The notes beneath the pieces are model-generated. The model did no database searches, was not told the origin of the DNA, and saw only the letters and a list, made by a program, of their open reading frames with translations. DNA of 11,222 nucleotides, taken from positions 18,212-29,433 of the forward strand of contig PBCB01000005.1 in NCBI GenBank assembly GCA_002717765.1, written 5' to 3'. Shown in pieces: positions 6,324 to 11,222 of this stretch. Origin of the DNA: Fidelibacterota bacterium. Lineage in GTDB: Bacteria; Marinisomatota; Marinisomatia; Marinisomatales; TCS55. The number at the start of each line of letters is the position of its first letter. Position 1 is the first letter of the stretch. The translations under genes and the position numbers were made by a program.

Positions 6324-6815
6324 CTATTTTATATCCAATCGAGTTTCTTGAACTAACCTTGCCCCATGCACAGATTCACCCTTTTTCAATTCATCTTTTA
6401 CTTTTTTTAGATTAACCTTTTCTGTTACTTGCTTATCAATAAATGTTTCAGGAATCATTTCTTCATCTTCAATAATTGCTTTTGGTGGATTTTTCTTAAT
6501 GGTTAAATCAAAATGAACAGTTTCAATCTTCTTTATTTGATTCTCTTCCATAACATTTTTCACATACTTTTTTATGTTACTCACCCTTTTTTCTAATCTC
6601 TTTCTGCGTTCAGCCATATTTTTTTCGGCCTCTTTAATCGCATTGATTGTGCCATCGAGATTTTGGGTATATTTTATAATATTTTCAGACTTTGCCTCTA
6701 GAGTGCCTTTTAAACCTTCAAGCGTATCGACTATTGCTTCATCTTCTAAATCGGTTAATTCTTCCAGGGCATCTTTATAGTCTTTTGCAATTTCATATAA
6801 TACTGGTAATGCCAT
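6324..6815 (-). CDS. Gp157-like protein of phage type (Sipho_Gp157 family)
   Basis: A 163-residue protein that matches the siphovirus Gp157 pattern by eye: short N-terminal LYE(I/L) motif (6-9), a charged helical middle with likely coiled coil (about 15-92), IKKNPPKAIIEDEEMIP (106-122), and the closing GARLVQETRLDIK (151-163). Gp157 was first described in Streptococcus thermophilus phage Sfi21 and linked to phage resistance; in phages it usually sits beside recombination genes. Here no other phage gene is visible, and the neighbours are a protease and lipoproteins. An AAAAGGG ribosome site lies 5 bases before ATG on the minus strand. It is either a domesticated phage gene or a remnant carried in by transfer. 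The reading frame is intact and base use looks like its neighbours. Family call is fairly sure; function here is unknown. Confidence 0.82.
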   Translation of the reverse strand: MALPVLYEIAKDYKDALEELTDLEDEAIVDTLEGLKGTLEAKSENIIKYTQNLDGTINAIKEAEKNMAERRKRLEKRVSNIKKYVKNVMEENQIKKIETVHFDLTIKKNPPKAIIEDEEMIPETFIDKQVTEKVNLKKVKDELKKGESVHGARLVQETRLDIK

Positions 6816-7479: not shown

Positions 7480-7506
7480 AACTTTCGTAAATTTACCGCA
7501 TCTAAT
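7480..7506 (+). promoter_or_regulatory. ECF-sigma-type promoter A (first Spy-like gene)
   Basis: AACTTT at 7480-7485 and TCTAAT at 7501-7506, separated by exactly 15 bases. The same two boxes at the same spacing recur at 8661 and 10014. The pattern agrees with the known sigma-E type ECF consensus (AAC in the -35, TCTGA/TCTAA -10). The predicted transcript starts near 7512, leaving a leader of about 38 bases with an AAGGA ribosome site (7537-7541) 8 bases before ATG 7550. Confidence 0.82.
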
Positions 7507-7549
7507 ACTGTAGAGACGCAACAACGAACAAATTATAAGGATTAATATT

Positions 7550-8536
7550 ATGAATAAATTTATCTTGCCATTCGCTTGCATGTTACTGGTTATCACAGGT
7601 TGTGAAAACTCTATGCACAGCGAATCTTCAAATCTCGACAGTGCTGAATTGCAGGAACTATCCTCTGAATTAACTTATGACTTAGGGTTGAGCAGATCCT
7701 CTGCAGATGCCATGAACAAATCTCTTAATCGTCATGGGAAAGGTGGAAAGCACCGCGAGCCAGGTTTCCTATGGAAAGTTGCAGCTGAAATGTCTGATCA
7801 GCTAACAGATGAAGAAAAAGCAGCCTTGTTTGAAAAAATGGATGAGAAAGATATTCCACTATTTGGAGTATCTAAAGGGAAGAAGAGTAAGTCAGGTAAA
7901 AAAGGAAAAAGCCAATTTTCAGCTATATACAAAGTCCTAACTGATGACCAAAAAGTTTTATATAAAGCGATGATGGCAGATTATAAAGAAAAGTTTAAAT
8001 CGCTTCGAGCGCAAGTGAAAGACGGTTCAATGTCAAAAGAAAGCGCTAAAGAGGAAATGAAGGCTCTTAAAGAAGCAATGCAAGCAGAAGTTGATGCACT
8101 ATTAACTGATGATCAAAAAGCGCAGCTAGAGCAAAACAAGGCAGATCATAAAGCCAAGCGCCAAGCGTATCGTGATTCATCGAAGGCTGTAAAGATTAGC
8201 GTTCTTGGGATGTCAGATGATCAAGTATCTTCTTACGATGCGGTAAATCAAGAAGCTAAAGATGCTGCCAGCGCACTATTTGAGCAGTCTAAGAATGGAG
8301 ATATTGACCGGGAAACACTTCGAGCAAGCTTAAAAGCTGTTTTCTCAGCTAGAAACGATAAGCTTACCGCATTATTTGATGACAACCAATTGGATATCAT
8401 CAAAATTCATAAAGCCCTTGAGATGAGAATGAAAAAACATCGCTCCTCAAAAGGAGATAAATCCAGAAAAAGCAAAAAAGGGAAAAAGGGCAAAAAAGGG
8501 AAAAAGGGCAAAAAGGGAAGCCGAAGTAAAGGCTAA
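7550..8536 (+). CDS. Spy/CpxP-like lipoprotein with four LTxxQ-type motifs and Lys/Gly tail (paralogue 1)
   Basis: A 328-residue lipoprotein: signal peptide with lipobox ITGC, Cys18. Four LTxxQ-type motifs are seen: LTDDQ 130-134, LTDDQ 185-189, MSDDQ 221-225 and DDNQ ending at 280. The first and second pair are each 55 residues apart, which suggests two tandem Spy/CpxP-like all-helical units. Spy and CpxP are periplasmic chaperone/stress-sensor proteins, and the related CnrX and ZraP bind metals. Before these units is a block shared with the paralogue at 8985: LNRHGKGG.HR and PGFLWKVAAEM (59-81). The C-terminus (about 300-328) is almost only Lys and Gly (KKG repeats), strongly basic, and missing from the paralogue. 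It is preceded by ECF promoter A and followed by a strong terminator, so it is a single-gene unit. Chaperone or sensor function is inferred from family and promoter. Confidence 0.85.
   Translation: MNKFILPFACMLLVITGCENSMHSESSNLDSAELQELSSELTYDLGLSRSSADAMNKSLNRHGKGGKHREPGFLWKVAAEMSDQLTDEEKAALFEKMDEKDIPLFGVSKGKKSKSGKKGKSQFSAIYKVLTDDQKVLYKAMMADYKEKFKSLRAQVKDGSMSKESAKEEMKALKEAMQAEVDALLTDDQKAQLEQNKADHKAKRQAYRDSSKAVKISVLGMSDDQVSSYDAVNQEAKDAASALFEQSKNGDIDRETLRASLKAVFSARNDKLTALFDDNQLDIIKIHKALEMRMKKHRSSKGDKSRKSKKGKKGKKGKKGKKGSRSKG
8474..8519 (+). repeat. 9-base tandem repeat encoding Lys-Lys-Gly
   Basis: About five 9-base units alternating AAAAAAGGG and AAAAAGGGC at the 3' end of the paralogue 1 gene, coding KKGKKGKKG. 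A purine-only tract like this is prone to strand slippage, so copy number may vary between strains, always in steps of three residues. Confidence 0.85.
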
Positions 8537-8546
8537 TCTTAAATTT

Positions 8547-8585
8547 AAAAGGCTGATCAGTGATAATTGATCAGCCTTTTTTTTT
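8547..8585 (+). terminator. Intrinsic terminator of Spy-like paralogue 1
   Basis: Perfect 13-bp stem, AAAAGGCTGATCA (8547-8559) with its complement at 8568-8580, an 8-base loop, and a run of nine T at 8577-8585. It lies 10 bases after the stop codon. Confidence 0.95.
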
Positions 8586-8660
8586 CTTCAATTTTTATTT
8601 AACTTCATCTGATTGTATATGTCTAATAAGCTATATAGGCATTTAGAATAAAAATTGTGA

Positions 8661-8687
8661 AACTTTCTTTAATCATAATTGTCTAAA
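8661..8687 (+). promoter_or_regulatory. ECF-sigma-type promoter B (87-aa gene and second Spy-like gene)
   Basis: AACTTT at 8661-8666 and TCTAAA at 8682-8687 with a 15-base spacer, the same as promoters A and C. The -10 is followed by TAG, as in promoter C. Predicted transcript start is near 8693-8696, giving a leader of about 30 bases with AAAGGA (8709-8714) 10 bases before ATG 8725. Confidence 0.82.
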
Positions 8688-8724
8688 TAGTATAGAAGCA
8701 TAATAATTAAAGGATATATAAGTT

Positions 8725-8988
8725 ATGTGTAATGCAATTTTAGAAACTATGTTAAGCGCCTCGCTCTTTATCTTCGGTGGAAATATTGTAGATACCAAGC
8801 TTGGGCTTCACCATTTTGAAGATGATGATTATAGTGAAATATTTTATCAGAAACACAATACCATTATAGTTAAAAATTGCACACGACATTCAGAATTAGA
8901 AAACATTAAAAAACTAAGGCGCCATCGACCTGAAAGTGGTGGACAAACAACAGTTTATAAAATAACAAAAACAAAGGAAGATGCATGA
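8725..8988 (+). CDS. Unknown 87-aa protein, translationally coupled to Spy-like paralogue 2
   Basis: I do not recognise this protein. It is 87 residues with a moderately hydrophobic N-terminus (5-20), an acidic patch HHFEDDDYSE (29-38), then a basic stretch KKLRRHRPE (62-70) before a polar end. There is no lipobox or clear signal peptide, so it may be cytoplasmic. Reasons to think it is real: a good AAAGGA ribosome site, position directly behind ECF promoter B, and an ATGA overlap (8985-8988) with the next gene, the usual sign of translational coupling. The copy 1 cassette lacks it. With two Cys (2, 52) and several His it could bind a metal or a partner, but that is a guess. Confidence 0.68.
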   Translation: MCNAILETMLSASLFIFGGNIVDTKLGLHHFEDDDYSEIFYQKHNTIIVKNCTRHSELENIKKLRRHRPESGGQTTVYKITKTKEDA

Positions 8989-9953
8989 AAAACTTTTCAC
9001 TATTAACCGCATTGGCATTATTAATCTTTACGGGTTGTGAAAGCGCAAATAATAATGAAGTTAATCTAGATGATCCAGAACTACAGGCATTAGCTGAGGG
9101 TTTAAATGCAGATATCGGTCTTAGTAAGTCATCTGATGATGCATTCAAGGATGCATTAAATCGTCATGGAAAACGCGGTGGACACCGTAAGGATCCTGGA
9201 TTCCTTTGGAAAGTAGCTGCAGAAATGCAAGGGAAGCTTTCCCAGGAAGAGAAAGATAGACTCTTTGCTTGGATGGACAATCACGCCGTTCCTTTTCTAC
9301 ATGCTCCCGAAAAAGATGCCCATCACGGACCTAAAGGGGATAAGGGCGGTATGGATTTTCGCCTATTATTCACTGTCCTTGACGCTGATCAGCAAGAAGC
9401 TTTAAAAGGTATTTTAGACTCCTACAGAGTACAAATGGAAGATGTCTGGAGTAAAATGAAAGATGGTTCAATGGATGAGGCTACCGGCAAAGCAGAACTC
9501 GAAGCTTTAGAGCTAGCTATGAAAACAGAGGTTGAGTCGTTGCTTTCTGATGACCAAAAAGCGCAACTTGAAGCGATGCTTGCTGAAATGAAAGATAAAA
9601 TGGAAGCATCAAAAAACGCTGAGTATGATGCAATGGTTGCTGCGCTAAGCATGACCTCAGATCAAGAATCCAGCTTAAAGGCTATCAATCAACAACATAA
9701 TGAGGCTGTAAAGGCACTATTAGAAGCTGCAAAGAATGCTGGTAAAGATGTTGATAGGCTTGAACTTGGAGAGAAAATTAAAGCCTTGATGATGGATCGA
9801 AATACAAGCCTAGAAGCGCTTTTCACTGATCAGCAATTAGACATAGTTAAAGTTCATATGTCTCTTGTGATGATGTTTTCAAAACATTGCGATGGTAGAA
9901 AAGATGGACGCTGGGGTGATTCAGATGATAAAGGTGGATCAACAAAGAGATAA
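8985..9953 (+). CDS. Spy/CpxP-like lipoprotein with four LTxxQ-type motifs (paralogue 2)
   Basis: A 322-residue lipoprotein paralogous to the one at 7550. Signal peptide with lipobox FTGC (Cys18). Motifs: LDADQ 132-136, LSDDQ 187-191, MTSDQ 223-227, FTDQQ 280-284, again two pairs about 55 apart. The conserved block LNRHGKRGGHR (58-68) plus PGFLWKVAAEM (71-81) is shared with paralogue 1. A His-rich loop HAPEKDAHHGPKGDK (106-120) replaces the Lys-rich loop of paralogue 1, and the C-terminus (about 300-322) is Gly/Asp/Lys-mixed instead of KKG repeats. ATG 8985 overlaps the stop of the 87-aa gene and has AGGA 6 bases upstream, inside that gene. Likely made from promoter B and ended by the terminator at 9979. 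Role as envelope chaperone, metal buffer or sensor is inferred. Confidence 0.85.
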   Translation: MKNFSLLTALALLIFTGCESANNNEVNLDDPELQALAEGLNADIGLSKSSDDAFKDALNRHGKRGGHRKDPGFLWKVAAEMQGKLSQEEKDRLFAWMDNHAVPFLHAPEKDAHHGPKGDKGGMDFRLLFTVLDADQQEALKGILDSYRVQMEDVWSKMKDGSMDEATGKAELEALELAMKTEVESLLSDDQKAQLEAMLAEMKDKMEASKNAEYDAMVAALSMTSDQESSLKAINQQHNEAVKALLEAAKNAGKDVDRLELGEKIKALMMDRNTSLEALFTDQQLDIVKVHMSLVMMFSKHCDGRKDGRWGDSDDKGGSTKR

Positions 9954-9978
9954 TTATATCTAACTTAATGAATAGATT

Positions 9979-10013
9979 AAAAGGCTGAAGTAAATACTTC
10001 AGCCTTTTTTTTT
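9979..10013 (+). terminator. Intrinsic terminator of Spy-like paralogue 2
   Basis: Stem AAAAGGCTGAAG (9979-9990) pairing with 9997-10008, six-base loop TAAATA, and nine T at 10005-10013. Its last T directly touches the -35 box of promoter C. The stem core AAAAGGCTGA is the same as in the terminator at 8547. Confidence 0.95.
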
Positions 10014-10040
10014 AACTTTTTTTATAGAGCTTAGTCTAAA
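10014..10040 (+). promoter_or_regulatory. ECF-sigma-type promoter C (sigma factor operon, autoregulation)
   Basis: AACTTT at 10014-10019 and TCTAAA at 10035-10040, 15 bases between. The downstream TAG continuation matches promoter B. The expected start of transcription is about 10045-10048, only 3-6 bases before the sigma gene's ATG, so the message would be leaderless or nearly so. The site implies that the sigma factor transcribes its own operon. Confidence 0.8.
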
Positions 10041-10050
10041 TAGAAGATGC

Positions 10051-10572
10051 ATGCGAACAGACAACGAATTAATAAAAGAATTTCAAGAGGGTAGAGAAGC
10101 TGCTTTCAATGAATTAGTTGGTCGTTATCTATCAAGCACATATGGGTTTTTTACTAAATTTACTGATTCTAAGGAGGAGGCTGAGGATTTAGCTCAGGAA
10201 ATTTTTATTAAAATGTACAAAGCACTTAAAAAATTTCGCTTTGAATCTGAATTCAAGACTTATTTATACCGGGCAAATATCAATATGTCCAATACTTATC
10301 TAAGGAGAAATAAATGGAAAAATATGCTTCACTTAGATCAGGCCCCTGAGCCCGAATATATTGATACGACAAATGAGGATGCATGGAAACGAAAAGAACT
10401 ATGGGATGCAATCGCAAAGCTTCCTAAGCGACAACAAATGGTTGTTACTATGAGAATAGCTGAAAATTTACCCTACAAAGAGATTGCTGATATTATGAAA
10501 ATTAGTGAAAATTCTGCGAAGGTCAATTATCACCATGCGGTGGAAACCTTAAAAAAATATTTTAAAAATTAA
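10051..10572 (+). CDS. ECF-type RNA polymerase sigma factor
   Basis: A 173-residue sigma-70 family protein made only of regions 2 and 4, as in extracytoplasmic-function sigma factors. Region 2 covers about residues 8-86, with the start DNELIKEFQEGREAAFNELV and the core-binding/-10 recognition part DSKEEAEDLAQEIFIKMYKAL (39-59). Region 4 covers about 115-171, with LPKRQQMVV and the helix-turn-helix YKEIADIMKISENSAKVNYHHA (142-163). The start is set by family length; no strong ribosome site is present, only AGAAG 4 bases upstream. Promoter C overlaps its leader, and two more identical promoters precede the Spy-like genes, so these are its likely targets. It is followed after one base by a membrane protein of anti-sigma topology. 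Similar to RpoE and CnrH in role; exact ECF group not determined. Confidence 0.95.
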   Translation: MRTDNELIKEFQEGREAAFNELVGRYLSSTYGFFTKFTDSKEEAEDLAQEIFIKMYKALKKFRFESEFKTYLYRANINMSNTYLRRNKWKNMLHLDQAPEPEYIDTTNEDAWKRKELWDAIAKLPKRQQMVVTMRIAENLPYKEIADIMKISENSAKVNYHHAVETLKKYFKN

Positions 10573-10573
10573 T

Positions 10574-10957
10574 ATGAAAATTGAAGAACAATTTAAAAAA
10601 TTATTGAATACATCATCTGATACAATTGAATCAGATGCGTTTTTAAAAAGCCTTCACTCTGAACGTCTACGACGCGATGATAGAAGGAAGAAATTATACG
10701 ATGGGTTTGTATCCTTATGCTTTGTACTTGTCTTTAGCTTTATTACCATGAGTCAATTAACAAATGATCCGGCCATCTATGCATCAGTTGATTTGCAGCC
10801 TTATGAAGAGATGGATGAAGAAACCGAAGAGTATGTTAATGATCTTGCCTATTATTTAATCAATACCAGCGATGATATTTGGGAGACAATAAATTTCTTT
10901 GAAACAATCAACTTTGACAATGTAATCGCTATGAACAATGGAGATATATATGAATAA
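10574..10957 (+). CDS. Single-pass membrane protein, probable anti-sigma factor
   Basis: A 127-residue protein with a charged N-terminal region (1-41, with the very basic RLRRDDRRKK), one membrane segment (about 42-60, YDGFVSLCFVLVFSFITMS), and an acidic periplasmic part (61-127, EEMDEETEEY). The basic flank before the segment predicts the N-terminus inside, which is the topology of short anti-sigma factors such as CnrY that hold the ECF factor at the membrane. No ZAS (HxxxCxxC) motif is seen and I know no exact family. The call rests on position, one base after the sigma gene, and on topology. Its last 8 bases overlap the next gene's start. Confidence 0.75.
   Translation: MKIEEQFKKLLNTSSDTIESDAFLKSLHSERLRRDDRRKKLYDGFVSLCFVLVFSFITMSQLTNDPAIYASVDLQPYEEMDEETEEYVNDLAYYLINTSDDIWETINFFETINFDNVIAMNNGDIYE
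10940..10943 (+). promoter_or_regulatory. Ribosome site fixing the start at 10950
   Basis: GGAG six bases before ATG 10950, inside the end of the anti-sigma gene. It supports an overlapping start and hence coupled translation. Confidence 0.65.
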
Positions 10958-11222
10958 AATTGTTATAATTCTTATGAGCTTCTCAATTATCTTTTGCCAA
11001 CCAGGAAAGGCGCGTGGCCCTGGAGGTCAATATGAGAATCGAATGGAGATGATGATGGTCTGGAAGCTTACTGACTACTTAAATCTATCTGAACAGCAAG
11101 CAGAAAAACTCTTTCCTAGAATGCGTAAGCATCGAGTAGAAATAGGAAAGTACCACAAAAATGAAAAAGAGCTTTTTGACTCCTACCTTTCAAAGATAAA
11201 AAAAGGGGAAAAGGTATCCCAG
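10950..11222 (+). CDS. Spy/CpxP/CnrX-like exported protein, N-terminal part (runs off right edge)
   Basis: Open for 91 codons to the end of the window. An export signal occupies about residues 1-21 (MNKIVIILMSFSIIFC); Phe at -1 of the Cys makes lipidation doubtful, so ordinary signal peptidase cleavage near GKA-RG is possible. The mature part holds one LTxxQ-type motif in KLTDYLNLSEQQAEKLFP (39-56), then a charged helix. This is the pattern of Spy, CpxP and CnrX and of the small 'sensor of ECF-type sigma factor' proteins that follow sigma/anti-sigma pairs in many Bacteroidota. It is shorter in design than the two four-motif lipoproteins upstream and is not a close paralogue. Likely job: periplasmic sensor that controls release of the sigma factor by the anti-sigma protein. 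Coupled by an 8-base overlap to the anti-sigma gene. Confidence 0.85.
   Translation, partial: MNKIVIILMSFSIIFCQPGKARGPGGQYENRMEMMMVWKLTDYLNLSEQQAEKLFPRMRKHRVEIGKYHKNEKELFDSYLSKIKKGEKVSQ

Follow-up and report, generated by a model that had tools for sequence, protein, structure and literature searches.

An 11,222-nucleotide (nt) stretch of DNA from a Fidelibacterota bacterium (contig PBCB01000005.1, GenBank assembly GCA_002717765.1; the whole stretch is hereafter called the window) carries a gene for an extracytoplasmic function (ECF) sigma factor and three identically built promoter-like sites, one of which lies directly before the sigma gene itself. The locus therefore raises the question of whether this sigma factor reads all three sites, which would tie it to its own operon and to two neighbouring lipoprotein units, and whether its synthesis is subject to any additional control. 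On the basis of the sequence comparisons described below, we consider it probable that the ECF sigma factor encoded at position 10051 uses all three sites as its promoters.

Three probable ECF promoter sites and their conservation

A preliminary description of this DNA had placed the string AACTTT-N15-TCTAAW (where W is A or T) directly upstream of three genes. An exact search returned the same three positions, all on the forward strand, with box starts 21 nt apart at every site and with the next forward-strand genes beginning at 7550, 8725 and 10051:

7480..7506, + strand: ECF promoter 1, exact match (AACTTT at 7480-7485, N15, TCTAAT at 7501-7506), predicted to drive lipoprotein A
8661..8687, + strand: ECF promoter 2, exact match (AACTTT, N15, TCTAAA), predicted to serve a small open reading frame (ORF) and lipoprotein B
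10014..10040, + strand: ECF promoter 3, exact match (AACTTT, N15, TCTAAA), predicted to serve the sigma operon (autoregulation)

No fourth exact match is present on either strand of the window, and the 3 observed matches compare with a chance mean of 0.03 and a largest count of 1 among 200 dinucleotide shuffles. The accompanying statement that no other intergenic region holds a match is accurate for exact matches, but at one mismatch an intergenic match appears at 8601-8627, 60 nt upstream of the second site. The -10 half of this additional match is not kept in the two nearest relatives. When two or fewer mismatches are permitted, the string becomes uninformative, because the window then has 12 matches versus a shuffle mean of 7.8, and 18 of the 200 shuffles reach 12.

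The closest relatives of the window, which belongs to the uncultured phylum Neomarinimicrobiota, are contigs PASZ01000027 and PASZ01000017; both come from one metagenome-assembled genome and share about 80% nucleotide identity with it over the common stretches. Within the family (40 genomes), 27 loci with lipoprotein homologues were fetched from 26 genomes, and 17 of these loci display the order lipoprotein A, lipoprotein B, sigma factor, membrane protein and Spy-like protein. Included in the 17 are L123, whose first lipoprotein is disrupted by a frame change, and L100, whose outer genes are truncated by contig ends. Among the other fetched loci, L119 stops inside the sigma gene, L135 has a single lipoprotein, contig ends truncate L136 and L137, and L138-L143 carry a distant lipoprotein with no sigma gene within the fetched stretch. 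One genome, G001, has the locus twice as diverged copies (contigs C20 and C30), and its assembly probably mixes two strains or species.

For phylogenetic footprinting, a site was scored when AACTT-N16/17-TCTAA occurred with at most one mismatch within 100 nt upstream of a gene, and chance expectations were taken from dinucleotide shuffles. The counts omit the window itself and the first lipoproteins of L123 (frame change) and L100 (contig edge). Sites were found before the sigma gene in 19 of 19 relatives (0.71 expected; exact in 16) and before the first lipoprotein gene in 24 of 24 (1.09 expected; exact in 16), the latter comprising 18 genes that either stand in the pair arrangement or are truncated by a contig end, plus the six distant single genes of L138-L143. 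Second lipoprotein genes, counted only where no small ORF stands before them, have a site in 12 of 15 relatives (0.61 expected; exact in 9), as do 4 of 5 small ORF genes (0.21 expected; exact in 2). In the sigma set, the boxes are kept and most of the spacer varies. Because the boxes recur before the same genes while the spacers diverge, the three sites are very probably functional ECF promoters that are under selection. Footprinting in related loci thus backs the initial proposal of ECF-type promoters, an autoregulated sigma operon and control of two lipoprotein units. An AAC-containing -35 target is characteristic of ECF sigma factors, and the sites conform to this in sequence.

The comparison was extended to the phylum, where matches came from 106 of 245 genomes, 32 of which belong to the family, and loci were fetched from 60 of the remaining 74. 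A promoter of the form TAAC[CT]...TCxxA precedes 83 of the 94 sigma genes in this set, in which the window is counted, G001 and G008 each contribute two copies, and some species are closely related.

The sigma operon and the reach of its proposed regulon

The third site is followed by three genes on the same strand:

10051..10572, + strand: ECF sigma factor, 173 amino acids (aa)
10574..10957, + strand: putative anti-sigma factor, 127 aa, with a short N-terminal part, one membrane span at about 44-62 and an acidic C-terminal part
10950..11222, + strand: Spy/CnrX-like exported protein, truncated where the window stops (165 aa in L001)

The sigma factor matches Sigma70_r2 (1.5e-14, residues 22-89), Sigma70_r4_2 (5.6e-15, residues 115-167 of 173) and, above cut-off, TIGR02937 (6.5e-31), and it therefore has only the sigma2 and sigma4 domains, as in ECF proteins. 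The 127-aa protein has a net charge of +2 before its span and -17 after it, and had no match in a profile search of the PDB. Its position within the operon and its architecture, together with the precedent of the class II protein CnrY, which consists of two helices wrapped around its sigma factor (PMC7406223), mark it as a likely anti-sigma factor. In one relative (L130, 7880-8637, turned to place the lipoproteins on the + strand), the putative anti-sigma gene, or part of it, occurs twice in tandem.

Some relatives of the Spy-like protein carry precomputed PF13801 or PF07813 matches, and an AlphaFold2 (AF2) model of the L001 protein weakly matches CnrX, Spy, CpxP and ZraP (probabilities of at most 0.99, with no E-value below 0.001). 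For 15 additional sigma loci within the family, the Spy-like neighbour was matched in all 15 and the membrane protein in 14. Outside the family, the 60 phylum loci gave a match for the Spy-like neighbour in 55 cases (E ≤ 0.01) and for the membrane protein less often.

This arrangement resembles CnrYXH of Cupriavidus metallidurans, in which a sigma factor, a short one-span anti-sigma factor and a Spy-fold periplasmic partner are encoded together, as their putative counterparts are here, albeit in a different gene order. Given this equal component logic, the predicted nearness of the Spy-like fold to CnrX and the weak Metal_resist matches, one could propose that the Spy-like protein binds metal, releases the sigma factor and drives a metal defence. 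Sensors of the CnrYXH type have conserved His/Met metal ligands. However, across 16 Spy-like operon proteins no histidine reaches 90% conservation, and two of the proteins lack histidine altogether; metal sensing is disfavoured because of this lack of conserved histidines. Moreover, a scan of ten proteins encoded in the window recovered no efflux gene, and the remote targets tested are receptor and Spy-like genes, so that lipoproteins and receptors are the predicted targets in place of metal efflux. We therefore consider metal sensing improbable. Four methionines are conserved after the signal region of the Spy-like protein, three of them in the first helix.

The regulon had been described as local and autoregulated, and a whole-genome motif search had been suggested as a check. 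Autoregulation is supported by footprinting, but a purely local reach is not, given that relatives add Spy-like and receptor genes. The search was conducted with G001 (0.9 Mb), the nearest relative of the window, as a stand-in. Six of its 7 exact matches are at the two locus copies, which fits a local regulon, with the remaining match falling within a reading frame of 932 aa; the reversed pattern has no match. A longer -35 element and the relatives nevertheless point to additional candidate targets. The pattern TTTAACTW-N16-TCTAA has 6 matches in G001 (reversed control 0), of which 4 are at the two locus copies, one is inside a reading frame, and one is intergenic before an outer-membrane receptor gene. 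In relatives, intergenic TTTAACTT-N16/17-TCTAA is also found before several envelope genes.

Sites at one mismatch or fewer precede a 134-aa Spy-like gene in all 9 of the 40 genomes that have this gene (0.65 expected), and a TonB-dependent-receptor-like gene (OMP_b-brl_3) in 17 of the 30 loci obtained from 31 matching genomes, where mononucleotide shuffles would give 1.97. Just upstream of the sigma gene, G011 and G013 have a gene (138 and 135 aa, respectively) with its own ECF site, and G012 has two ECF sites there with no gene of this type. The theme of the regulon is thus envelope protein care, with effectors that have changed between lineages.

Several observations weigh against the view that the local sigma factor governs a regulon of this kind. 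The 127-aa protein has no anti-sigma match in Pfam or NCBIfam, and its distant relative in L233 has none in Pfam. A fold search with the lipoproteins gave nothing at E ≤ 0.001. Genome-wide enrichment of the string is weak, with 81 matches to the longer pattern versus 68 for the reversed control in the 40 genomes, and 17 of 35 inspected off-locus matches sit inside reading frames of at least 100 aa. Thirteen of the 30 receptor genes are without a site at one mismatch or fewer, although misses among distant receptors are less sure because their starts had to be extrapolated, the alignment beginning only within the protein. Furthermore, in G002, G004, G005 and G007 the sigma promoter has AACCTT, whereas the lipoprotein promoter has AACTT with a 17-nt spacer and a -10 element of TCTAA (TCAAA in G007), and therefore the two promoters do not track each other exactly.

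This divergence, along with the further, weaker ECF homologues (32-37% identity) present in six family genomes, could indicate that the sites are read by another ECF sigma factor of the cell and that the local sigma gene is merely one of its targets. We judge this to be unlikely, given that the site is located before the local sigma gene across the phylum (83 of 94 genes) and that the lipoprotein pair adjoins this gene in the 17 ordered loci noted above.

An out-of-frame ATG immediately before the sigma start

The earlier reading of the promoters was almost right, but a very short sigma leader and a conserved upstream ATG had gone unnoticed:

10047..10094, + strand: out-of-frame upstream ATG at -4 relative to the sigma gene, opening a 15-codon overlapping reading frame

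Assignment of the sigma start is all but forced, because the window offers no earlier in-frame start and the next in-frame methionine is residue 55, inside region 2. Similarly, 41 of the 60 phylum loci have no alternative in-frame start near the sigma ATG. The leader can comprise only a few nucleotides, because the -10 box begins just 16-17 nt upstream of the sigma start (18 of 19 loci). The lipoprotein genes, by contrast, can accommodate leaders of about 17-45 nt, many with a purine-rich stretch resembling a Shine-Dalgarno sequence. In L360, L361, L379 and L380, the sigma ATG is only 3 nt past the TCTAA box, which would place the expected transcript start inside the gene.

In the family set, 33 of the 34 rows have the upstream ATG at -4. 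Across the phylum, an out-of-frame ATG is present at -4, -5 or -7 in 71 of 94 sigma genes (40, 20 and 11, respectively), and an in-frame ATG at -6 or -9 in only 1 of 94 (L232, whose contig ends at the sigma start, was left out of this table). By comparison, an out-of-frame ATG occupies those positions in 3.4% of 350 other ORFs of the same loci, and when the 12 nt upstream of the sigma genes are shuffled, such an ATG appears in 9.9 genes on average and in 19 at most. Where a recognised promoter and the ATG occur together (70 genes), the ATG always begins 7-10 nt after the -10 box, and by analogy with ECF promoters in general the 5' end of the mRNA would be at or near it.

When the sigma genes are reduced to representatives, the ATG is present in 21 of 35 at 70% identity and in 12 of 23 at 60%. 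On a tree of the sigma proteins (93 of the 94 rows), its spacing changes at least 4 times among carriers and its presence or absence at least 9 times, with losses that sit partly on long branches. Because spacing and presence change repeatedly, common descent alone does not explain the upstream ATG. The out-of-frame peptides range from 5 to 24 codons, and given these differing lengths, it is the position of the ATG rather than the peptide that is kept.

These patterns suggest that the transcript may carry a conserved 5'-terminal AUG that acts on translation of the sigma factor. Translational control of this kind is a proposal that we make only tentatively. With the same reserve, we envisage that the sigma factor could be controlled twice, once by its own promoter and once by a wrong-frame 5'-terminal AUG at which 70S ribosomes would be caught 4-7 nt ahead of the true start.

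We regard it as about equally plausible that the ATG has no translational role and is no more than a by-product, whether of A-richness around the start or of sequence needed by the promoter. That 11 of 24 lipoprotein A leaders, all from one clade, carry an ATG equally far from the -10 box is what a promoter-side need might predict, and absence of the ATG from 23 of the 94 sigma genes, together with its patchy presence among representatives, points in the same direction. However, its excess over shuffled sequence and over other genes of the same loci argues against a by-product, as does its rarity at other regulon promoters (lipoprotein B, 1 of 12; small ORF, 0 of 4; Spy-like, 0 of 9; receptor, 1 of 12, counted in 12 of the 30 receptor loci). 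Furthermore, the distance to the sigma start shifts between -4, -5 and -7 while the ATG persists. In the lipoprotein A leaders concerned (L124-L132, L134 and L137), the ATG is exactly 8 nt after the -10 box and opens short reading frames in varying frames.

There is precedent for a regulatory role in Escherichia coli, where the 5'-terminal upstream AUGs of certain mRNAs (ptrB and rcnR among them) can bind 70S ribosomes and either increase or decrease expression of the gene downstream (PMC4965119). As in the sigma genes, an out-of-frame AUG precedes the gene, and in the examples considered from that report it is 0-2 nt from the 5' end. Unlike those cases, which have a normal leader and a Shine-Dalgarno sequence, the sigma AUG follows only 4-7 nt later, the arrangement recurs through the phylum, and the 5' end is a predicted one.

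Lipoprotein units, proposed mechanism and significance

The two units preceding the sigma operon are composed as follows:

7550..8536, + strand: lipoprotein A, an ORF of 328 aa with a lipobox-like N-terminus (judged by eye) and a Lys/Gly-rich tail; putative Spy-like chaperone
8547..8580, + strand: intrinsic terminator between units 1 and 2, a 15-pair stem followed by a T run
8725..8988, + strand: small ORF of 87 aa, restricted to the near clade, whose 3' end overlaps the lipoprotein B start
8985..9953, + strand: lipoprotein B, 322 aa, helical; Metal_resist match (2.6e-4) below cut-off
9979..10013, + strand: intrinsic terminator of unit 2, with a 13-pair stem (9979-10008) and a T run that abuts the -35 element of promoter 3

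Lipoprotein A has no Pfam match above cut-off and is kept beside lipoprotein B and the sigma factor in relatives. Lipoprotein B probably consists of two tandem Spy-like helical modules (about 125-221 and 225-302); its AF2 model has a predicted local distance difference test (pLDDT) score of 66 and a predicted template modelling (pTM) score of 0.40. The existing label of 'Spy-like' for the lipoproteins is reasonable, but Pfam matches are weak in the window itself and firmer in relatives (precomputed PF07813). In some relatives (L122, L123; P0008, P0009, P0010), lipoprotein B has an additional C-terminal Cys-rich domain (precomputed PF00050/PF07648), which we take to be a Kazal-type protease inhibitor and which is an odd partner for a Spy-like lipoprotein.

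The small ORF has no Pfam match and has homologues in 5 of the 27 loci (45-83% identity, tblastn); L118 has a second related copy at 2-136, upstream of lipoprotein A. The T run of the unit 2 terminator also abuts the sigma -35 element in L118-L123 and L135, and the two are further apart in other loci. A different lipoprotein-like gene of 322-357 aa, with no family assigned to it, follows the Spy-like gene in L228-L231 and L233-L237, which represent more distant genomes (G011-G015 and G035-G040 among those fetched). Elsewhere in the window, a Siphovirus Gp157-like protein (6324-6815, - strand; Pfam E 9e-45) is encoded amid an otherwise chromosomal-looking neighbourhood.

Alongside promoter conservation, gene order and domain content, all of which are read directly from the sequences, we infer the local sigma factor as reader of the sites, the anti-sigma role of the 127-aa protein, the nature of the signal and the chaperone activity of the lipoproteins. 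In a resting cell, the 127-aa membrane protein would probably hold the sigma factor, and the exported Spy-like protein would tune it as a periplasmic sensor. Release of the sigma factor would be triggered by envelope disturbance, the most likely cause being outer-membrane proteins that are misfolded or overloaded, and not metals. The freed sigma factor would then transcribe its own operon, giving positive feedback along with more brake and sensor, and would transcribe the two lipoprotein units, which probably encode membrane-anchored chaperones. In relatives, it would also drive a small Spy-like protein and an outer-membrane receptor. A nearly leaderless sigma mRNA that starts at or near the out-of-frame AUG may provide a second, translational layer. 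Such a model is in keeping with the protection of outer-membrane proteins by Spy (PMC8546600).

Many of these characteristics are shared with known systems. RpoE (sigma-E) of E. coli is likewise an ECF protein with sigma2 and sigma4 domains and with envelope-protein targets, its -35 target GGAACTT shares AACTT with the sites described here (PMC8103513), and its operon also encodes a membrane anti-sigma factor (RseA) and a periplasmic partner (RseB) (PMC12153292). The locus differs from this system in that the putative anti-sigma factor is short and has no RseA or zinc anti-sigma domain recognised by Pfam or NCBIfam, a Spy/CnrX-like protein stands in the place of RseB, and the sigma mRNA is predicted to be nearly leaderless. 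SigAb-AabA-AabB of Acinetobacter is similarly an autoregulated ECF operon with a small anti-sigma factor and a direct regulon of few genes (PMC12153292), but its promoter (-35 GTCAAC, -10 CGTT) and partners are different. Given that about 55% of ECF sigma factors are autoregulated (PMC8103513), an autoregulated ECF envelope system is of a common kind, and it is the upstream AUG that goes further. A literature search on sigma factors in Marinimicrobia, with subscription journals mostly outside its reach, returned no paper on an ECF regulon, as judged by title and the start of the abstract.

The footprinted promoter provides a usable motif for reading envelope-stress regulons from genomes of this marine phylum. 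If the upstream AUG acts as proposed, the state of the ribosomes (for example, free 70S particles or the supply of initiation factors under stress) would govern the yield of sigma factor from each transcript and would damp or gate the positive feedback loop. A decoy or loading start of this kind, of long standing in the phylum and set inside an ECF switch, would then constitute a new regulatory layer for this class. The upstream AUG makes this system a variant that deserves experiment, and its recurrence offers a way to ask whether the scattered 5'-terminal AUGs of the E. coli type can be a long-kept regulatory device.

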